This document shows, in pieces, positions 9,219 to 61,476 of a stretch of DNA of 64,000 nucleotides (its first letter is position 1; each line of letters starts with the position of its first letter). The notes beneath the pieces are model-generated. The model made no database searches, was not told the origin of the DNA, and worked only from the letters and a program-made list of their open reading frames with translations. The translations under genes were made by a program, and so were the position numbers. The stretch is from positions 1-64,000 of IMG/VR virus record IMGVR_UViG_3300046005_000547. One strand, given 5' to 3'. Origin of the DNA: a virus.

Positions 9219-9284
9219 TTTATACCACCTTTGTAATTGATTTAGATTGATTTAAGTTCATTGGATTCTTCCAACTTGAAATCT
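9219..9284 (-). promoter_or_regulatory. Early-operon 5' leader with hairpin
   Basis: The untranslated leader carries TTGGA-AGAA-TCCAA, a small hairpin close to the predicted 5' end, then AACTTAAATC and an AAAGGTGG ribosome site. The same leader, with few changes, precedes the gene at 28,422. It may stabilise the mRNA. Confidence 0.6.
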
Positions 9285-9312
9285 ATTATAATGATTTTTC
9301 TTATCATCGAAA
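9285..9312 (-). promoter_or_regulatory. Early-type promoter (TTTCGA-N16-TATAAT)
   Basis: On the minus strand TTTCGA is followed after 16 bases by TATAAT and AGATTTC. The same arrangement recurs before many operons in this window. It drives the TerD operon. Confidence 0.8.
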
Positions 9313-10659: not shown

Positions 10660-10882
10660 TTTTATTTCCTTCAATATGTTGACATAGTTCATCCACCGTA
10701 GCGAATGTATCCCATTCTTCTGAATCGTCATTATAAACAGCCCAATATGATTCACCAACCCATGGCGATACAGACATAATGTTATTATCGAAATATGCTG
10801 TGCCAGAAGCAATATCATAATGGATAATGTCATCGTCAGTTGGGTGTTTTAAGATTTCAAGTAATGTTCTGTTATCTTTCAT
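10637..10882 (-). CDS. Hypothetical acidic protein
   Basis: An 81-residue acidic protein rich in aromatic residues (GESYWAVYNDDSEEWDTF). Its ends overlap both neighbours. No family recognised. Confidence 0.7.
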   Translation of the reverse strand: MKDNRTLLEILKHPTDDDIIHYDIASGTAYFDNNIMSVSPWVGESYWAVYNDDSEEWDTFATVDELCQHIEGNKNVFNYIK

Positions 10883-11423
10883 AATTTGTTACCTTATGGT
10901 CTGATTCAATAATCTCTAAAATTGAATCAACTGTTTTTGAAGAAACTATAATTGAATGAAACGATAACTCAGATTTCAATAACAAAGAATGAATATTGTC
11001 GTCAATCAACATTGCTTCTTCAACTGTTTGATTTCTACCATATTCTTGGAACCCATGATGTTCTAAATCTCGTTTCAAGAAGATTTCTGTATTATAAAAC
11101 AAATCATGTGCATCTTTAATCAATTCTTTCAGAATTGGCAAATCATAATCTTCTGAGATATAATTCAATTGCATCAACAATGGTGAATCTGTAATTACAT
11201 AATCGACTTGGTCTTTGAGTCTTCTGATTTTAGATAATTGTTTGGCAAAGACGTATTCTTGATTATTTTTAAGAATGTTATGACGTTTGTCGTAAGTCAA
11301 ATCTTTTGCGTATTCAGATACAAGTTCAACTTTGTATCCTTTTGATTTCATCCGATAGAATAGACCAGCAGCCGTAGTTGATTTACCTGTACCTGGACCA
11401 CCGTATAAATTAATTATTTTCAT
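10872..11423 (-). CDS. P-loop NTPase/kinase (AAA_28, NadR-like)
   Basis: A 183-residue P-loop protein with Walker A GGPGTGKST (residues 8-16), an ELVSEYAKDL segment after the second strand, DYVITDSPLL as the Walker B region, and a central helical lid. This layout fits the AAA_28 group, which includes the ribosylnicotinamide-kinase domain of NadR. A kinase acting on a nucleoside is likely. Nicotinamide riboside would fit the NAD genes elsewhere in this arm, but that is inference. Confidence 0.8.
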   Translation of the reverse strand: MKIINLYGGPGTGKSTTAAGLFYRMKSKGYKVELVSEYAKDLTYDKRHNILKNNQEYVFAKQLSKIRRLKDQVDYVITDSPLLMQLNYISEDYDLPILKELIKDAHDLFYNTEIFLKRDLEHHGFQEYGRNQTVEEAMLIDDNIHSLLLKSELSFHSIIVSSKTVDSILEIIESDHKVTNYER

Positions 11424-11625
11424 GAGTTTCGAATCCTTTTAAAAAATTGTCATCTGTATGTAATTTGAGATCACGTATATCTGCTTGGGATAATACACCT
11501 TCTTTATCAACAACAGCTAATTTTGCCATATTATTGACGACAAATACGTCAGATACAATTAAAACAATTTCTGGTTTATTGTATTTGCTTATGATGTATG
11601 TAGCAAATTTACCTTTTAAATTCAT
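11410..11625 (-). CDS. Small hypothetical protein
   Basis: A 71-residue protein, MNLKGKFATYIISKY onward, probably a small beta barrel by its strand pattern. GGTGG lies before the chosen Met. It overlaps the kinase gene by 14 bases. No function recognised. Confidence 0.65.
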   Translation of the reverse strand: MNLKGKFATYIISKYNKPEIVLIVSDVFVVNNMAKLAVVDKEGVLSQADIRDLKLHTDDNFLKGFETHENN

Positions 11626-12851: not shown

Positions 12852-12896
12852 GATACTCTCCTAAAATTTTAAATGGTAACTTCTTATCTGAAATCT

Positions 12897-12924
12897 ATTA
12901 TAATGTTTTTTAGATTCATCGAAA
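12897..12924 (-). promoter_or_regulatory. Early-type promoter
   Basis: TTTCGA, 16 bases, TATAAT on the minus strand, followed by AGATTTC. It precedes the operon 12,851 to 9,375. Confidence 0.8.
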
Positions 12925-13982: not shown

Positions 13983-14026
13983 GATACACCACCCTTATAA
14001 AAGATTAAAATTTAATGTTGAAATCT

Positions 14027-14054
14027 ATTATAAGGGATTTTCGATGTTTCGAAA
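14027..14054 (-). promoter_or_regulatory. Early-type promoter
   Basis: TTTCGA, 16 bases, TATAAT on the minus strand, with the same AGATTTC extension as other sites. It precedes the gene at 13,590. Confidence 0.8.
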
Positions 14055-23217: not shown

Positions 23218-23264
23218 AAGAATTTCTTTGTTTTGGTAAGAGTGAATCCCTTAATTCAGAATCT

Positions 23265-23292
23265 ATTATAAAGATTTTATCGTTCATCGAAA
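23265..23292 (-). promoter_or_regulatory. Early-type promoter
   Basis: TTTCGA, 16 bases, TATAAT on the minus strand, with AGATTC after it. It drives the operon from 23,217 to the RNA ligase. Confidence 0.8.
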
Positions 23293-24467: not shown

Positions 24468-24848
24468 TTAAAAGGATTCCAGATTATTATTTTCCGATAT
24501 TCTTCTGCTTGCTATGTTATAATAAGTTTCATCTAATTCACAACCAATGAAATCCCTATTGGTATTCATACAAGCAATTGCCGTGGTTCCAGAACCCATA
24601 CAATTATCCAATATCAAATCACCTTCATCAGAATACGTCTTAATCAACCATTCAAATAAGGCAATAGGTTTCTGGGTAGGGTGTAAATTTGATTTCAACG
24701 TATCTCGTTTGAATTTCAACACTTGAGTCGGATACCTTGTTCCATTATCTTCATACGGTTTGACTTTCATCTTACCAGAATCAACCAATGTCCCTAATTT
24801 ACCATTTCTAACCCCATTAGATACCAACTTACCTTCATGTTTAATCAT
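24468..24848 (-). pseudogene. C-terminal half of a second DNA adenine methyltransferase
   Basis: A 126-residue frame that begins MIKHEGKLVSNG and carries only the C-terminal part of a beta-class N6-adenine methyltransferase: NLHPTQKP, then LDNCMGSGTTAIACM (AdoMet-binding motif I) and FIGCELDETYYNIA. The DPPY catalytic motif and first half are absent. It is a tandem relative of the gene just upstream and overlaps its original stop by eight bases. Either it is a decayed duplicate, or it works in trans with the N-terminal fragment upstream, which lacks exactly this part. Confidence 0.75.
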
Positions 24849-25613
24849 ACAATTCCAAGTTGCAATGAGAATCAATTCTGTCTAATGATTTTGTATACAT
24901 TTCAGAATCTAATTCGCATCCGATATAAATTCTATTGGTATTCATACAAGCGATGGCAGTTGAACCAGAACCCATAAATCCATCGAATACAACATCATTT
25001 TCGTTAGTGTATGTTTTAACAAGATATTCTAGTAAGGGTACGGGTTTCTGGTTGGATGGAATTGGGTCTTGGGGGATTCATTAGAGAATTTAAGAATGTT
25101 GGTGGGATAATTTGCTCCATCTTGTTCATATTCTGTTCCTACTTCATGTCCACCAGAATATGCAGATGTTGTCTTGACATAATTGATACGTTTCTTATTG
25201 AATTCAACAACACCTTGTGGATTGTATAACATTGGATTTGTTGAATTACGACGTATCGCTCCTTTAGAGAATACTGATATGTTTTCGGTTTCACGTAATG
25301 GCATTCCTTTGGCGTGAACAAATCCATTCTTCCTTGATTTGTGCCAAAGGAAATTATACTTGAAATCAGATAAATTAGAACAAATCAATCTGCTGGTAAA
25401 AGGATCCGTTCCGAATAATACAATAGATCCGTTTGGTTTCAATACTCTAAACCATTCAATCCAAAGTTCATCTATCTTTGACATTAGATCCCATTCCCAT
25501 TTACATGCTGTTGTATTATAAGGTGGATCTTGTAAAATCAATTGTACAGAATCATCTGGTAATGTTTTAAGATATTCTATACAATCAATGTTGTAAATTT
25601 TATTCAATTCCAT
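24841..25613 (-). pseudogene. DNA adenine methyltransferase, frameshifted
   Basis: The first 194 codons hold a beta-class N6-adenine methyltransferase N-terminus with the catalytic motif LQDPPYNT (about residues 30-37) and a target-recognition region. The frame then ends early at PYPY (stop near 25,029). One missing C near 25,050 explains this: in the other frame the protein continues QKPVPLLEYLVKTYTNEN, then DGFMGSGSTAIACM, and stops at 24,841. The sequence beyond the break is well preserved, so the lesion is recent, a sequencing error, or a frameshift site. The enzyme would methylate phage DNA against host restriction. Confidence 0.8.
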
Positions 25614-28667: not shown

Positions 28668-28733
28668 TGTATACCAACCTTTATAATAATTTGTTTGATT
28701 TAAAGTTCATTGGATTGTTCCAACTTGAAATCT
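28668..28733 (-). promoter_or_regulatory. Early 5' leader with hairpin, copy 2
   Basis: Contains TTGGA-ACAA-TCCAA followed by TGAACTTTAAATC and AAAGGTTGG. It is a near copy of the leader at 9219-9284, though the genes that follow are unrelated. Confidence 0.6.
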
Positions 28734-28761
28734 ATTATAAAGGGTTTTTAAAACATCGAAA
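28734..28761 (-). promoter_or_regulatory. Early-type promoter
   Basis: TTTCGA, 16 bases, TATAAT on the minus strand, with AGATTTC downstream. It drives the gene at 28,422. Confidence 0.8.
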
Positions 28762-41320: not shown

Positions 41321-41524
41321 TTATTTCTCCTCGACACATTTAATGTAATTGAATGATTTTTGTAATTTGATTGGAACATTTTTATTGTAATCAGATAATG
41401 ATTTATTCGCTCTGATGATTTCCTTCTTACATTCAGGAACAGTCTTAAATGTTTTATCATTATTAAATGTAACAATTTGTTGATTGAATACATTTATGAT
41501 TAAGAATATCAATTTGATTTTCAT
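41321..41524 (-). CDS. Small exported protein
   Basis: A 67-residue protein with a weak signal peptide (MKIKLIFLIINVF) and two Cys, one base from the next gene. It is the first gene of the leftward arm behind promoters at 41,552 and 41,677. Function unknown. Confidence 0.6.
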   Translation of the reverse strand: MKIKLIFLIINVFNQQIVTFNNDKTFKTVPECKKEIIRANKSLSDYNKNVPIKLQKSFNYIKCVEEK

Positions 41525-41580: not shown

Positions 41581-41676
41581 GATAAACATAATAATTAAAG
41601 TCGAGGAAGACACTATAAGAATATAAAGAAAACTTAATTGAATCTATAGAACTAACTCAAACCGTCGACATAGTCT

Positions 41677-41705
41677 AGTATACTGTCTTTTTATCGATTT
41701 CGAAA
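41677..41705 (-). promoter_or_regulatory. Array promoter P1
   Basis: TTTCGA, 17 bases, TATACT on the minus strand. No terminator follows before the first leftward gene, so this copy drives the early arm. Confidence 0.75.
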
Positions 41706-41950
41706 GGAGTTTCTAGATGGATGTAATTTACACATTCGATGTCCTTAAGACTCTTTCGATACGTGATTATAATTGATTCGATGTTGTCGTTTAAAATGAC
41801 CGTCCATATTTGGATTTTAAGGTGTATTAAATGTATCCTGTAGAGTTGATTGGTGTATATTGGAAACGTTCCATTAAGGTGGATTATTGGACAAATAATG
41901 GATGTTAACGAATCAACATAGACTATTATAATATGAAATTGAATCTAATA

Positions 41951-42132
41951 AAAATCCTGATGGAATGGTTGGTTCTCATCAGGATTTGGAAGCAGAGATT
42001 TTAATGTTGAATTATTGTATAGAATATACTCGATAAAGACAATAATATGTTCTTGTAGTAATATATTAATGTCTATAAAGAATCTAAAAGAATATTAGAA
42101 AAGCAATAGATACACTAACTGAAACGTCGACA
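41951..42132 (-). ncRNA. Array small RNA 1
   Basis: Promoter P2 (TTTCGA at 42,162-42,167, N17, TATACT at 42,139-42,144) and a terminator at 41,949-41,987 (stem AATCCTGAT) bound a transcript of about 180 bases. The 5' part GACTATGTCGACGTTTCAG and the inner ATATTACTACAAG and AATCTCTGC blocks are shared with the other copies. Confidence 0.6.
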
Positions 42133-42430
42133 TAGTCTAGTATACTGTCTTTTCTAGGATTTCGAAAGGAGTTTCTAATCGTTGATGTTTACATACTCGA
42201 TGTTAAAGATTATCGAATGTCATCTTAAGACTCTTTCGATACATGATGTTTACAGTTTCGATGTAATCGTTAAATCCTGCCCAATTATTTGTTGATTTAA
42301 GAACGATTCATTGTATCTTGTAGACTTGATTGGCATAATACAGAAAAATTCCACTAGAGTCCATTAACGAGCAAATAATGGATGTTAATGATTCGTCCAA
42401 CAATATCAATTCTTAAAATTTCAAACAATA

Positions 42431-42592
42431 AAAATCCCGACAGAATTTGTTCATTCTTATCGGGATCTGATACGCAGAGATTATATGTTGTTTAATTGTA
42501 TAGAATATTACTATAATAATTCGATAAAGAGTCTTGAAGTAATATAATAAAATCTAAAAGTGTTATTAAAGGTAATAACTGAAACGTCGACA
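42431..42592 (-). ncRNA. Array small RNA 2
   Basis: Promoter P3 differs: TTGACT (42,622-42,627), N17, TATAGT (42,599-42,604), a better sigma-70 match. The terminator is at 42,429-42,467 with stem ATCCCGA. Length about 162 bases; shared blocks ATATTACTTCAAG and AATCTCTGCG. Confidence 0.6.
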
Positions 42593-42890
42593 TAGTCTAC
42601 TATAACGATATTTCCTCGAAAAGTCAAGAAGTATTTTTATGTTGATATTTACATACTCGATGCCTTAGATTATCCTTCGATGTTCTTGTATGTCTTTCAA
42701 TACATGATTATAGTTGATTCGATGTTATCATTAAATCCTACATGGAAATTTGCCAATATAAGACGAGTTAAATGTATCCTGTAAGTTGATTGACATAATA
42801 CAGGAATATTCCACTAGGATGGATTAACGAGCAAATAATGGACATTAACAATTCAACATAGAACCAATATATTGTAAATTTTATCTAATA

Positions 42891-43071
42891 AAAATCCCGA
42901 AAGAACTTTTGATTCAATCGGGATCTGACGCGCAGAGATTTTAATGTTGAATAATTACTCGATAAAGACATATTAATACTCTTGTAGTAATATAATAAAG
43001 TCTATAAAGAGTCTTGAAGTAATATAGAAAAATACTAAAAACCATTAATAACTCTACCTGAAACATCGACA
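42891..43071 (-). ncRNA. Array small RNA 3
   Basis: Promoter P4 (TTTCGA at 43,101, N17, TATACT at 43,078-43,083) and terminator at 42,889-42,925 (stem ATCCCGA). Length about 181 bases; contains ATATTACTACAAG and AATCTCTGCG. Confidence 0.6.
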
Positions 43072-43360
43072 TAGTCTAGTATACTGTCTTTTTATCGATT
43101 TCGAAAGGATTAACTTTACCCTGTAATATACATACTCGATATCCTTTTCATCTTTAAGACTCTTTCGATACATGATTATTACTCATTCGATGTTAACAAT
43201 TATTATAGACATCCATATTTGGATTTTAAGATGGGTTATATTGTTGACATAGAGTTGATTGTTATAACATGAAAAGATTCCATTAAGATGGATTAACGAG
43301 CAAATAATGGATGATATAGAAGTAATATACAATTACAAAATCTGTAAATTTTATCTAATA

Positions 43361-43531
43361 AAAATCCCGACAGAATTGTTCATTCTTATCGGGATCTGAG
43401 ACTCAGAGATTTTATGTTCTTTAATTGTATAGAATATTGATATATTAATGCATATAAAGAACCTTGTAGTAATATAGAAGACAATAAAAGAAAACCTAAA
43501 AACAATAGATACATTAACTGAAACGTCGACA
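43361..43531 (-). ncRNA. Array small RNA 4
   Basis: Promoter P5 (TTTCGA at 43,561, N17, TATACT at 43,538-43,543) and terminator at 43,359-43,396 (stem ATCCCGA). Length about 171 bases; contains ATATTACTACAAG and AATCTCTGAG. Confidence 0.6.
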
Positions 43532-43834
43532 TAGTCTAGTATATCCGAGTTTTATCGATTTCGAAAGGATTATCTTTACCCTGTAATAATCAAACTCGAT
43601 GTTTAAGATTATCGAATGTCATCTTTAAGACTCTTTCGATACATGATTATAGTTGATTCGATGTTAACATTTAATCCTACATGGAAATTTGCCAATATAA
43701 GATGGATTCAGAATATCCTGTAGAGTTGATTGATGTATATCATTAAAATCATTTTAACTTGGATTAACATTCAAATTTACATCATAAATAATCTTATTGT
43801 ATACATTAAATCATAGACTACATGAACACTTTGA

Positions 43835-43845
43835 TTTAATAAATA
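43835..43845 (+). promoter_or_regulatory. Late-type promoter box before gene 18
   Basis: TTTAATAAATA lies 46 bases before the gene 18 start. Similar boxes precede genes 19 and 22. It resembles the T4 late promoter TATAAATA. Confidence 0.6.
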
Positions 43846-43890
43846 ATAATAAAGAACAAATATATCTCATACACAATAAGGAATTCCTAT

Positions 43891-46107
43891 ATGTCATACC
43901 AAATTTCACCTGGAATCGTGTCTAACGAAATCGATAATGCTATCGTAACAGTAGCCGTGAAATCTCCAGCTGCCGCTTTTGCTGGCGTCTATAGATGGGG
44001 TCCTGTTATGGAACCAACTACCATCAATTCAGAAAAAGCATTGTTGGAACAATTCTTCAAACCAAACAACGTAGATAACGTAACACGAGATTTCCATACG
44101 GCATCGAATTTCTTATCATATTCTGATAATTTATTAAATGTTCGATTAGATACTCTTGGTAACAGAAACGCAGTTGCTCGTCCTTTAATTACAACGAATG
44201 ATTCAATTAAATTCACTGTAACAGGTGGAACTGAAAAAACATTTACCGTTACAACACAAACAACCATTGCTGAAATCGTCACCGAAATTAATGCAGATGT
44301 TGTTTTGAATTTATTGGTACAAGCCAAAGAATTCAAAGGTAAATTAATCTTAACATCAGTTGACACAGCAAAATCTGTTATTGGTAGTTATTTCAGTGGT
44401 GCTACTTTAGTTACCGCCGGCGTAACGACTCCTGTTAATGGTCCAACTGCTGGTTTCGTTACCATCTTACCTGGATCTTCAATTAAAGTCAACAACGATG
44501 ACGCTTACGAAACAAGTTACATCAATGGTGAAGCAAACATCGGCGAATTCATTGCCAAATATCCTGGAACAATTGGTAACTCTATCGGTGTTATCGTTTT
44601 AGATAACAATACATTCGATTACAGTACATTAACTGGTTCGATTACTTCAATTGTAAGTTCTAAAGTTGTCACTGGTTCTGATACTTTATTCACAAAAGAA
44701 TTAGTTCCAGGATCTATTGTTAAATCATCTGCTGGTTCTGTAATTGGCACTGTATCTTCTGTTGAATCTGATACATCATTGACTTTGACCTTGGAAACAC
44801 AAACTCCAGTTTCCGCTATGACAAATGCAAGAGTATCGATTGCTGAAGAATATTCTGCTCTATTCAAAAAACCTTCTACAACTCTTTATGCTAAATCAAG
44901 AAACGTTACCAACGCTCTTGATGAAATTCATATCTTGGTTATCGATAAAGAAGGTACAATCACAGGTGTTCCAGGTTCTATCTTAGAAAAATACTCTTAT
45001 CTTTCTAAAGCAGCTGACGCAAGAAAAGAAGACGGCACTTCTGCTTATTACAAATCTGTAATCAACGCAAGTTCTGATTATATCCGTTGGACAGACCACC
45101 CAACTTCTTTAGGTTCTACTGGATATATCTGGGGTTCTAGATTAGAAGATATGCCCGCTGATTCTTCGTTCAAAACATTAGTTCGTCCGCTCAACATTCA
45201 ATTTGTTGGTGGTAAAGATGATTTTGAAGTTCTTGAAGCAAACATCTTAGATGCATATGCTTTATTGAAAAACAAAGAACAATTCAAATTCAAATTCTTA
45301 ATTACGGGTAAAGCGACTTCTGTTGTAGCAAAATATGCTATCCAAAGTGTCGCTGAATTCAGAAGAAACTGTGTTGCATTTATCTCCCCAATTGATGCCA
45401 TCACAGATGAAATCATTATTGGTAATACTTCTTCTGCTGTAACTAAAATCATTGAATTTAGAGATACATTACCATCAAGTTCATGGGGTGTATTAGATTC
45501 AGGATACAAATACCAATACGATCGTTTCAATGATAAATTCATCTGGGTTCCATTGAATGGTGATATTGCTGGTTTAGCTGCTAGAGTAAATGAACCTTGG
45601 GATTCTCCTGCCGGTTTCTCTAAAGGTCAAATCAAAAATGTTGTGAAATTAGCTGTTAATCCAAACAAAGCCGATAGAGACGCATTATATCCAAGTGGTA
45701 TCAATCCAGTTGTTTCTTTCAAAGGTCAAGGCACTATTCTATATGGTGATAAAACATTATTAGATAAACCTTCAACATTTGATAGAATCGGTACAAGAAT
45801 GTTATTCATCTTCTTAGAAGAATCTATTGAAAAAACAGCTCAATATACATTGTTTGAAATGAATGATGAATTTACAAGAACTCAATTCCGTAATGCGGTA
45901 GAACCTTTCTTGAAAGACATCAAAGGTCGTCGAGGCGTTTATGATTTTAAAGTGATTTGTGATTCTACGAATAACACTGCTGGTGTAGTTGAAACAAATA
46001 ACTTCGTAAGTGATATTATGATTAAACCACAATATAGCATCTCATTTATCACCCTCAACTTTATTGCCACTCGTCAATCTGCGTCATTCTCGACAACTGG
46101 TGCATAA
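43891..46107 (+). CDS. 18: Tail sheath protein (gp18)
   Basis: A 738-residue contractile tail sheath subunit, longer than T4 gp18 (659). The N-terminus SYQISPGIVSNEIDNAIVTV with SPAAAFAGVYRWGP, and the C-terminal region FTRTQFRNAVEPFLKDIKGR and ISFITLNFIATR, are typical of T4-like sheath proteins. The middle, from about residue 95 to 330, is more variable and probably forms the outer domain. It polymerises around the gp19 tube and contracts on infection. AAGGAATT precedes the start. It is the first rightward late gene. Confidence 0.96.
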   Translation: MSYQISPGIVSNEIDNAIVTVAVKSPAAAFAGVYRWGPVMEPTTINSEKALLEQFFKPNNVDNVTRDFHTASNFLSYSDNLLNVRLDTLGNRNAVARPLITTNDSIKFTVTGGTEKTFTVTTQTTIAEIVTEINADVVLNLLVQAKEFKGKLILTSVDTAKSVIGSYFSGATLVTAGVTTPVNGPTAGFVTILPGSSIKVNNDDAYETSYINGEANIGEFIAKYPGTIGNSIGVIVLDNNTFDYSTLTGSITSIVSSKVVTGSDTLFTKELVPGSIVKSSAGSVIGTVSSVESDTSLTLTLETQTPVSAMTNARVSIAEEYSALFKKPSTTLYAKSRNVTNALDEIHILVIDKEGTITGVPGSILEKYSYLSKAADARKEDGTSAYYKSVINASSDYIRWTDHPTSLGSTGYIWGSRLEDMPADSSFKTLVRPLNIQFVGGKDDFEVLEANILDAYALLKNKEQFKFKFLITGKATSVVAKYAIQSVAEFRRNCVAFISPIDAITDEIIIGNTSSAVTKIIEFRDTLPSSSWGVLDSGYKYQYDRFNDKFIWVPLNGDIAGLAARVNEPWDSPAGFSKGQIKNVVKLAVNPNKADRDALYPSGINPVVSFKGQGTILYGDKTLLDKPSTFDRIGTRMLFIFLEESIEKTAQYTLFEMNDEFTRTQFRNAVEPFLKDIKGRRGVYDFKVICDSTNNTAGVVETNNFVSDIMIKPQYSISFITLNFIATRQSASFSTTGA

Positions 46108-46841: not shown

Positions 46842-49727
46842 ATGGATATTTTCGGAATTTCTATTAAAAAGAAATCCGATAAAATGAAGAGGGTGGATTC
46901 ATTTATTCCACCTTCTAATGATGATGGTTCTATTGTATCAACTTCTTCATTTTACGGATTATCATTAGATTTAGATGGAGCTGTAAAAGATGAAAATGAA
47001 TTAATTAGAAGATATAGACAAGCCGCAGAATATCCTGATTGTTCTAATGCCGTAGAGGAAATCGTTAATGAAGCAATTTCCGTTTCGTCTGATGATGCTC
47101 CTGTTACATTAAATCTTAATCATATCGAATCTTTATCTGAAAATGTAAAGAAAGCTATGGCAAAGGAATTCAGCATTATCTTGGATCTATTTGATTTTCA
47201 AGATAAAGGATACGATACATTCAGACAATGGTATATTGACGGTAAGGTTTATTTCCATGCCGTAGTTGACACTGAATCTCCAAAAAAAGGTATCCAGGAA
47301 TTAAGATATGTGGATCCAAGGAAGATTAGAAAAATCAAGGAAATGGTTGTTGAAAAGGATTCCCATGGTAACGATATTAAAAAGTCGGGTGAAACGTATT
47401 ACTTGTTTAATGATTCTGGTATCAATGCTGCAGCCAAATCTGGTGTTAAACTATCTTTAGAATCTGTTTTCTGCGCTACGTCTGGTATCGTTGATTATAA
47501 CACAGGAATGATTAGAAGCCATTTACATAATTCCATCAAAATTATCAATTCATTAAAATATACAGAAGAATCGCTGGTAATCTATAGAGTATCTAGAGCA
47601 CCTGAACGTAGAGTATTTTACATCGATGTAGGTAATTTAAATAAAGCTAAGGCAGACCAATATATCCAAGATACAATGGCTCGGTTTAGAAATAAATTAG
47701 TTTTCAACAGCACAACTGGTGAAATTAATGATAATAAACAGAACCAATCAATGATGGAAGACTATTGGTTACCTCGTAGAGATAATTCAAAAACAACTGA
47801 AATCACTACGTTACCAGGCGGATGTCTATCAATGGACACTAAAGTTTCATTATTAGATGGTAGAGAAATTACAATTTCTGAAATTGAACAAGAAATGAAA
47901 ACTGGTAAAGAACTTTGGGTTTATTCTTGCGATGAATTTACTGGTCAAATAAAACCTGGATTGATTACTTGGGCTGGAACGACGCAGAAATCTGCTAAAG
48001 TTATGAAAATAACATTAGATAATGGTGAATCTTTAATTTGTACACCAGACCATAAATTTCCAATTTATGGTAAAGGATTTGTTGAAGCGAAAGATTTAAT
48101 GATTGATGAATCGATGATACCATTATATCGGAAACACGAACAAATATCAAAAGCAAAAAAACGAGGATATGAACAATTTTTCGATAATCATAAAAAAGAA
48201 TGGGTATTCACTCATAGAATGGTTTGTGATGAATTGAAAGATAAGAAGATTTTCGATTATGTATATGATGAAGAATACAAAGATAGAACTAAAAATGTAA
48301 GACATCATATTGATTGTAATAGATTCAATAATAATCCAAACAATTTATGTTTTATGTCTTGGGATGACCATGCTAAACTTCATTCAGATTTATCGTTTAG
48401 TGAAGAAGCATACATGCTCGGAACTAGAGCTGCGGCGGAAAAACTTCGTATAATGAAAATTGAAGATCCAGATGCATATAAAAAACGTTCTGATGAAATT
48501 GGATTAAGAACCATGGAATGGCATGCTTCATTGAATGAAACGGAAAAACAAGAATTTATTGAATCTTTAAAAAAAGGTAATACTGAATATTGGGAAAATA
48601 TTTCTGAAGATTTGAGGGAACATAGAGCTAATGTATCTAGAACAAATGCATATTTGGGTATGTTATCGACTCAACACAAGTTACAAACAGATCCAATTTT
48701 TTATGAATTTTTTTGCGAACAAAATCGTAAATCTTGGGATGATGAACGTAGATTAAAATCCGCAAATATTACCAAAATAATTAGTACAGAACGATGGTTG
48801 TTGAGAGGTGACGAATTAAGAAAAAAACACAAAGAAAATCAAAAACTAGAAATTGATAATTTTATTTTCAAGAAAATAGTGGATTTAATCGCAAATAAAT
48901 CAACGTATAAAATTACATTAGAAGATGTAGTCAATTCATTAAATAATAATGAAGAATGCGTGTCTAGATTGATTGAATTGAACCAACATAAACATATTCC
49001 CAATTATGATGTGTTGGAAGGATTCACTAACAATAATGTTTCTAGATGTGTTAAAGATTATGGATATAAACATTGGATGGATTTTAGACAGAAATTCAAA
49101 TATCACAATCACAGAATTATTGATATTGAATATCTAGATGAAGAAATTGAAGTTGGTACATTAACTATCGACGGAGACGAATTATATCATAATCATCATA
49201 CATTTGCTTTGACTTGTGGAATTTTCACTAAAAATTCGAATTTGTCCGACATATCGGATGTAACTTACTTCCAGAATAAATTGTTTAGATCTCTTCATGT
49301 GCCTATTACAAGATTGATTCCTGAACAATCATTTTCTATTGGTAGAGCAGGTGAAATCACCAGAGATGAAATTAAATTCTCTAAATTCATCACTAGATTA
49401 CGTTCTAAATTTTCAAAAATCTTCATGGAAGCATTGAGATTACAATGTGTTCTGAAAGGAATTATATCTTATGAAGATTTCTCTACGATAGAAAAACAAA
49501 TTAGATTCAACTTTCATGATGATAATCATTTTGCTGAATTATCTGAATCTGAAGTCCTACAAAATAGATTAGCTACATTACAACTTGTTGATACATACGT
49601 TGGTAAATACTTCGATACAAATTGGGTCAAGAAAAATATATTGAAACAATCTGATGAAGAAATTCAAGAAATCCAAGAACGGATGGACGAAGAAAAACCA
49701 CTTATGGAACCAACCGAAGAAGAATAA
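46842..49727 (+). CDS. 20: Portal protein (gp20) interrupted by an intein
   Basis: A 961-codon gene whose exteins (residues 1-327 and 799-961, together 490) match T4 gp20 (524): YRQAAEYPDCSNAVEEIVNEA, DFQDKGYDTFRQWYIDG and VSRAPERRVFYIDVGNL at the front, and LSDISDVTYFQNKLFRSL and RLRSKFSKIFMEALRLQ at the back. The dodecameric portal sits at the capsid vertex and nucleates head assembly and packaging. The intein occupies a conserved site just before the SNLSDISDV block; precise removal restores GG-SNLSD. Its activity is needed for a working head. Confidence 0.94.
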   Translation: MDIFGISIKKKSDKMKRVDSFIPPSNDDGSIVSTSSFYGLSLDLDGAVKDENELIRRYRQAAEYPDCSNAVEEIVNEAISVSSDDAPVTLNLNHIESLSENVKKAMAKEFSIILDLFDFQDKGYDTFRQWYIDGKVYFHAVVDTESPKKGIQELRYVDPRKIRKIKEMVVEKDSHGNDIKKSGETYYLFNDSGINAAAKSGVKLSLESVFCATSGIVDYNTGMIRSHLHNSIKIINSLKYTEESLVIYRVSRAPERRVFYIDVGNLNKAKADQYIQDTMARFRNKLVFNSTTGEINDNKQNQSMMEDYWLPRRDNSKTTEITTLPGGCLSMDTKVSLLDGREITISEIEQEMKTGKELWVYSCDEFTGQIKPGLITWAGTTQKSAKVMKITLDNGESLICTPDHKFPIYGKGFVEAKDLMIDESMIPLYRKHEQISKAKKRGYEQFFDNHKKEWVFTHRMVCDELKDKKIFDYVYDEEYKDRTKNVRHHIDCNRFNNNPNNLCFMSWDDHAKLHSDLSFSEEAYMLGTRAAAEKLRIMKIEDPDAYKKRSDEIGLRTMEWHASLNETEKQEFIESLKKGNTEYWENISEDLREHRANVSRTNAYLGMLSTQHKLQTDPIFYEFFCEQNRKSWDDERRLKSANITKIISTERWLLRGDELRKKHKENQKLEIDNFIFKKIVDLIANKSTYKITLEDVVNSLNNNEECVSRLIELNQHKHIPNYDVLEGFTNNNVSRCVKDYGYKHWMDFRQKFKYHNHRIIDIEYLDEEIEVGTLTIDGDELYHNHHTFALTCGIFTKNSNLSDISDVTYFQNKLFRSLHVPITRLIPEQSFSIGRAGEITRDEIKFSKFITRLRSKFSKIFMEALRLQCVLKGIISYEDFSTIEKQIRFNFHDDNHFAELSESEVLQNRLATLQLVDTYVGKYFDTNWVKKNILKQSDEEIQEIQERMDEEKPLMEPTEEE
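47823..49235 (+). other. Intein with HNH endonuclease in gp20
   Basis: The 471-residue intein starts at Cys328 (CLSMDTKVSLLDG, block A), with block B GESLICTPDHKFPI (the TxxH motif). An HNH homing domain lies near residues 486-516 (RHHIDCNRFNNNPNNL and DDHAKLHSD). The end is HTFALTCGIFTKN followed by Ser799 of the extein. The usual penultimate His is Lys here, a variation seen in some inteins that still splice. The arrangement marks it as a mobile, homing-competent intein. Confidence 0.92.
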
Positions 49728-58202: not shown

Positions 58203-58250
58203 TGCTTGATAGTGGAATGTTTATAATATATGTCAATCAACTCTACAGGA
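58203..58250 (+). promoter_or_regulatory. Possible middle-type promoter and shared element
   Basis: TGCTTGA, 12 bases, TATAAT matches the spacing of a T4 MotA-box middle promoter. The following 20 bases, TCAATCAACTCTACAGGATA, also occur (minus strand) in several units of the 41.7-43.8 kb array together with an upstream TAGTGGAAT. No motA gene is visible here. Confidence 0.45.
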
Positions 58251-58281
58251 TAACAAAAACAAACATTAATGGAGGATTAAA

Positions 58282-61415: not shown

Positions 61416-61443
61416 TTTCGATGTTTGACAAAATCGTTATAAT
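61416..61443 (+). promoter_or_regulatory. Early-type promoter
   Basis: TTTCGA, 16 bases, TATAAT on the plus strand, then AGAATC. It drives 61,477 and the genes after it. Confidence 0.8.
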
Positions 61444-61476
61444 AGAATCATCAATAACATTTTAGAGGTAAACAAA

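Follow-up and report, generated by a model that had tools for sequence, protein, structure and literature searches.

Promoter early stem-loops (PeSLs), for which PMC4503421 cites Arbiol 2010 and Comeau 2014, are composite motifs scattered over the genomes of T4-like phages; each pairs an early promoter with a terminator stem-loop, and they reportedly mediate shuffling. For the T4-related Campylobacter group II phages CP21, CP220 and CPt10, PMC4546147 describes large modules split by related repeat regions of 1-2.9 kb, which are mostly extragenic and some of which contain genes; relatives differ by module inversions, some repeat units stand alone at other places, and the units are mostly 72-86 bp long with the core AAACTTAAAGCAA. 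A preliminary description of the locus studied here had named no described equivalent; both of these systems are in fact close to it.

The stretch analysed (the window) comprises bases 1-64,000 of IMGVR_UViG_3300046005_000547 (G0), a T4-type phage of 234,735 bp. Its T4-type genes include those for the tail sheath (gp18, at 43,891), tail tube, portal, capsid and DNA polymerase. An identical 127-base sequence opens and closes the G0 contig, which is therefore probably complete. We compared it with a single related genome, IMGVR_UViG_3300046008_000242 (G1; 249,362 bp), which has a gp18 tail sheath of 90% identity. Because they are the window's own phage again, loci L001-L006, L022 and L024 did not enter the independent counts. 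A DNA search of the array against cultured phages gave no match.

Several coding features were recorded in passing. The portal ORF (window 46,842-49,727) encodes 961 aa with an intein-like insert, gp17 (G0 74,002-75,981) is 659 aa long, against 541 aa in G1, and matches intein splicing weakly, and a DNA methyltransferase shows up as two adjacent ORFs (window 24,468-25,613). Rfam matches to permuted and betaproteobacterial tmRNA occur in viral contigs L175 (2,963-3,377, minus strand) and L178 (6,019-6,338, plus strand).

The array in the window

The array spans 41,600-43,850 and contains five units of ~470 bp with five minus-strand promoters and four terminators. We describe it with three profiles: P (promoter block), T (terminator block) and S (the stretch from a terminator to the next promoter). 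Its features, listed along the minus strand from the tail sheath gene on, are as follows.

43891..46107, plus strand: tail sheath gp18, start of the 29.7-kb block inverted in G1
43624..43776, minus strand: partial S element at the array's upstream end (profile)
43535..43566, minus strand: promoter 1, TTTCGA-N17-TATACTAGA; predicted start near 43,531; profile match 43512-43601
43360..43532, minus strand: predicted terminated RNA 1, 173 nt, terminator at its 3′ end (folding and alignment)
43153..43351, minus strand: S element between terminator 1 and promoter 2, core CAATCAACTCTA (profile)
43075..43106, minus strand: promoter 2, TTTCGA-N17-TATACTAGA (motif search)
42890..43072, minus strand: predicted terminated RNA 2, 183 nt
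42693..42881, minus strand: S element (profile)
42599..42627, minus strand: promoter 3, TTGACT-N17-TATAGT, the sole promoter of this array with a sigma-70 -35 hexamer
42430..42593, minus strand: predicted terminated RNA 3, 164 nt
42224..42421, minus strand: S element (profile)
42136..42167, minus strand: promoter 4, TTTCGA-N17-TATACTAGA (motif search)
41950..42133, minus strand: predicted terminated RNA 4, 184 nt
41743..41925, minus strand: S element (profile)
41674..41705, minus strand: promoter 5, without terminator; 147-nt leader to the 67-aa gene
41321..41524, minus strand: 67-aa gene fed by promoter 5 (ORF)

Spacing from promoter to promoter is 460, 479, 460 and 462 bp, no ORF of at least 50 aa lies inside the array, and the region, at 2,366 bp, is by far the largest noncoding stretch of the window, the runner-up being 469 bp. 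The preliminary description had proposed five gene-less units of 460-480 bp, four promoter-terminator pairs and a fifth promoter that lacks a terminator and feeds genes; all three proposals hold, with four predicted RNAs of 164-184 nt where they had been placed and promoter 5 leading through its leader into the 67-aa ORF. It had also pointed to shared inner motifs, and these (ATATTACTWCAAG and AATCTCTG) are not kept in G1. The G1 orthologue of the 67-aa gene (66 aa, 49% identity) also stands at an array end. TCGA occurs 15.6 times per kb in the array (41,600-43,780) versus 2.6 in the remaining window, a roughly 6-fold enrichment.

Examination of the promoters shows TTTCGA-N17-TATACT on the minus strand at 43,566, 43,106, 42,167 and 41,705, and TTGACT-N17-TATAGT at 42,627. 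All 24 copies of the 13-mer TAGACTATGTCGA in G0 lie within arrays and are exact, and G0 has no copy of it with one mismatch. TTTCGA-N16/17-TATNNTAGA has 40 occurrences in G0 and 37 in G1, whereas its reversed control has none in either genome. Array copies have a spacer of 17 and -10 hexamers such as TATACT, TATAGT and TATGAT, with a minority carrying TTGAC or TTGCC at -35; TTTCGA promoters outside arrays have a spacer of 16 and TATAAT, and all four inspected precede genes. Many unrelated viral contigs, along with three Clostridium contigs, also have the start region downstream of TTGAC-N17/18; in Clostridium, TTGAC-N17/18-TATNNTAGACTATG lies upstream of what look like tRNA genes. This wide occurrence supports promoter function and weakens the idea, which we considered, that the invariant 13-mer is a special operator. 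We regard the array promoters as credible. A canonical sigma-70 -35 is present in only one of the five promoters in the window array, the TTTCGA box not being one, and we infer that TTTCGA may be a binding box for a phage activator. A leaderless peptide starting at ATGTCGA was rejected: the frames differ, and most G1 copies stop after four codons.

The promoters outside arrays form a second class, TTTCGA-N16-TATAATAGA, with 21 copies in G0; four that were inspected have a common leader like TTCAAGTTGGAAGAATCCAATGAACTT ahead of the gene. Those in the window are at 9,282-9,312, 12,894-12,924, 14,024-14,054, 23,262-23,292, 28,731-28,761 (minus strand) and 61,416-61,446 (plus strand). One copy, at locus L118 (G1 10,558, minus strand), has its promoter start element inverted where it stands, ATCGACATAGTCTAT replacing ATAGACTATGTCGAT. 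In several T4-like viral contigs, TTTGAC-N17/18-TATAATAGACTATGTCGA lies immediately behind a tail-tube-like gene (L133 4,424-4,463, minus strand, and similar contigs among L128-L153) and points antisense into that gene.

Arrays and predicted transcripts in two genomes

Arrays make up 5.2% of the genome. G0 has 24 P at seven arrays, on both strands, with 15 promoter-terminator pairs; G1 has 25 P and 16 pairs at eight loci. The arrays of G0 are these.

41.6-43.8k: 5 P, 4 T
72.5-73.9k: 2 P
103.9-106.0k: 5 P, 4 T
140.2-141.8k: 4 P, 3 T
162-163.3k: 2 P
196.3-196.9k: 2 P, 1 T
228.7-230.3k: 4 P, 3 T

The order S, P, leader, T is repeated along an array, and the last P, usually without a T, opens an operon; in most cases a P without a T has a leader of 90-210 nt to a gene. 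Orthologous array-end genes in G0 and G1 encode 67 and 66 aa, 166 and 164 aa, and 64 and 63 aa. Other arrangements occur: terminal promoters aim into the 3′ end of gp17 (G0 73,855+, G1 40,559+), the G1 unit at 43,721+ stands alone between opposite-strand genes and feeds no gene, and a terminator intervenes between the G1 promoter at 11,787- and the HNH gene behind it. HNH genes lie beside or inside arrays at G0 72,942-73,583 and G1 10,810-11,481. In the first 200 kb of Ochrobactrum phage OC (MT028491.1), no array was found beside gp18, the related repeats there being only three single intergenic ones of ~160 bp with hairpins (20,633; 110,324; 183,624).

Terminator hairpins fold well in all 31 copies from the two phages (z -2.8 to -7.6). 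Several unrelated stem sequences are flanked by constant ends, which implies that the hairpin is kept and not its letters; a simple terminator scan missed the array terminators, probably because of its loop limit. The bodies of the 31 RNAs fold like dinucleotide shuffles (z near 0). The terminator stem, three of whose six pairs show two-sided changes, was the sole structure found by RNAalifold, and runs on each phage separately gave nothing convincing in the RNA body. Identity between G0 and G1 follows the same division: 0.70 for both promoter (shuffled 0.48) and terminator (shuffled 0.43), and a much lower 0.59 for the body (shuffled 0.50). The bodies hold many exact short segments common to copies in differing combinations, a pattern that recombination among copies would produce; stretches in common include TTT.AGTTA near the 5′ end and ATAAAATC before the terminator. 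An Rfam search of the 64-kb window returned tRNA matches only, leaving the array RNAs without a match. This conservation pattern weakens the preliminary reading of the transcripts as a small-RNA family. The reading does withstand the check that the preliminary description had set, conservation of the promoter-terminator pairs in related phages, since G1 has 16 pairs; the bodies are unstructured and poorly conserved, and covariation is confined to the terminator.

S elements are 0.56 identical between G0 and G1 over their whole length (shuffles 0.43-0.50). As structured RNA they were rejected, since most of the copies folded were near shuffle level, although a few were strong. Their reverse complement as an opposite-facing promoter was likewise dropped, because the solitary copy at 58,203 would face against its neighbouring gene. 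Solitary S elements without an array promoter lie at window 58,203-58,271 (plus strand) and at G0 143.1k, 197.3k, 224.9k and 233.3k, and a G1 copy at 113,195 resembles a perfect hairpin with a long stem and TCAATCAACTCTACAGG as its loop.

Arrays and block order

G0 and G1 share eight blocks, defined from about 100 sampled genes; block ends were located from array flanks and block interiors were sampled.

a: ends at the 67-aa gene
b: gp18 to a 435-aa gene and an HNH gene
c: gp17 to a 317-aa gene
d: ligase to 116 aa
e: gene near 145k to 161 aa
f: RecQ-like to 166 aa
g: 101 aa to 64 aa
h: from a 933-aa gene

The order is a b c d e f g h in G0 and a -b c -e -f -d g h in G1. Within blocks, the order of the ~100 genes is collinear except for three single-gene displacements, which may be paralogues. 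All six joints at which block order or orientation changes are at arrays, and the seventh array (g-h) is unchanged, with four promoters in both phages. Under a uniform model with arrays at 5.2% of the genome, the chance of six of six breaks falling in arrays is ~2e-8, a rough figure since the block ends came from array flanks. At every rejoined end an array's downstream side meets an array's upstream side and transcription polarity is kept, as in-register recombination between arrays requires.

The window array illustrates one such joint. G0 43,891-73,583 corresponds to G1 39,747-10,813 in inverted orientation (29.7 kb), and the outer sides are collinear. In G1, the array beside gp18 sits between gp17 and gp18, its last promoter aiming into the gp17 3′ end. 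In T4, gp17 adjoins gp18, so G1 probably has the older arrangement at this place. The position of the window array at an "early/late divide", which the preliminary description had stressed, is thus incidental, a junction left by the inversion.

Explanations and known systems

We think that the arrays are probably PeSL-like promoter-terminator cassettes, tandemly amplified, that serve the operons at array ends and act as recombination joints. The unit would be a cassette of S element, promoter, ~130 nt leader and intrinsic terminator, which would terminate the transcript of the upstream block (insulation) and give the downstream operon a promoter. Through tandem repetition, only the last promoter in most arrays would read into genes, and the upstream promoters would yield short terminated transcripts; the internal promoter-terminator units may be tandem duplicates and the short RNAs mostly by-products. 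Copies of the array, direct and inverted, would be long homologous targets at which recombination could invert or transpose whole blocks, and any exchange would leave each rejoined operon with a promoter and a terminator. HNH genes near arrays may help to start such exchanges. That the promoters fire, that the terminators work and that homologous recombination made the breaks is presumed here from the DNA itself.

Not every array serves an operon, and the gp17-facing promoters, the G1 unit at 43,721+ and the terminator ahead of the HNH gene in G1 count against the cassette explanation. Where units feed nothing, their intact promoter and terminator may mean that the short transcripts, or transcription itself, matter; gene conversion could be another reason for their retention. 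We give a small chance to the idea that the short transcripts, 15-16 per genome, are themselves what the arrays are for. Identical promoters would then make, in bulk, unstructured RNAs whose ends are fixed and which form a recombining library; these would act as decoys for a host protein or defence sensor, the same DNA being the genome joint. It is unlikely, on the evidence of the bodies, that the transcripts are instead a family of phage small RNAs, 15-16 in each genome, whose ends are fixed and whose cores vary and that act on host or phage RNAs or titrate a protein: folding signal, covariation and Rfam matches are all lacking, identity between the phages barely exceeds that of shuffles, and the bodies resemble reshuffled short segments. 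Such RNAs would fit the retention of gene-less pairs in both phages (31 in total), the short stretches in common (TTT.AGTTA and ATAAAATC) and the solitary G1 unit.

Regulation by attenuation or antitermination would have the upstream promoters also serve the operon, with the terminators overridden later in infection by a phage factor through a leader element. The partly conserved 5′ leader element and the G1 promoter that reaches its HNH gene only via a terminator are in keeping with this, but the gene is already fed by the last promoter with no terminator between, the leader elements have no conserved RNA structure and no factor was identified, which makes it highly improbable. We would be most surprised if the arrays were replication origins, at which tandem promoters lay short RNA primers at several dispersed sites: most of the loci are at operon starts, and neither an initiator site nor an unwinding element was identified, against which stand several dispersed, AT-rich, promoter-bearing noncoding loci and the TCGA enrichment in the window array, such as protein-binding repeats would show.

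If the cassette-and-joint explanation is right, promoter-terminator repeats would be standard joints between large blocks of T4-type genomes in two natural relatives, and a concrete case of such genomes reordering without loss of expression. It would connect PeSLs with module-separating repeat regions, which have been described separately, and it cautions that gene-less tandem promoter-terminator units need not be small-RNA genes.

The predicted array transcripts resemble phage small regulatory RNAs (review PMC12197685) in that they are short and each has a promoter and an intrinsic terminator of its own, pairs that are conserved in G1; unlike those RNAs, they come from 15-16 copies per genome and have unstructured, poorly conserved bodies and no identified target. 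With the Campylobacter group II phages, G0 and G1 share long extragenic repeat regions that divide a T4-related genome into modules, and the inversion of modules between relatives. The repeats themselves differ: the G0 unit is 460-480 bp against 72-86 bp, the core AAACTTAAAGCAA is absent from the 64-kb window at up to one mismatch, and the unit in G0 and G1 carries a promoter and usually a terminator, whereas a term search of PMC4546147 gave no mention of promoters. PeSLs, as described in PMC4503421, are matched by a promoter and terminator stem-loop in intergenic DNA of a T4-like phage, by dispersed intergenic loci (seven in G0, eight in G1) and by arrays that are sites of shuffling (six of six block breakpoints). 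Unlike PeSLs in that description, the cassettes of G0 and G1 are 460-480 bp, stand in tandem up to five times, are mostly gene-less between promoter and terminator, include a third conserved element (S), and mark joints that move whole blocks of roughly 15-40 kb. The arrays of G0 and G1 combine features of PeSLs and of the Campylobacter group II repeat regions.
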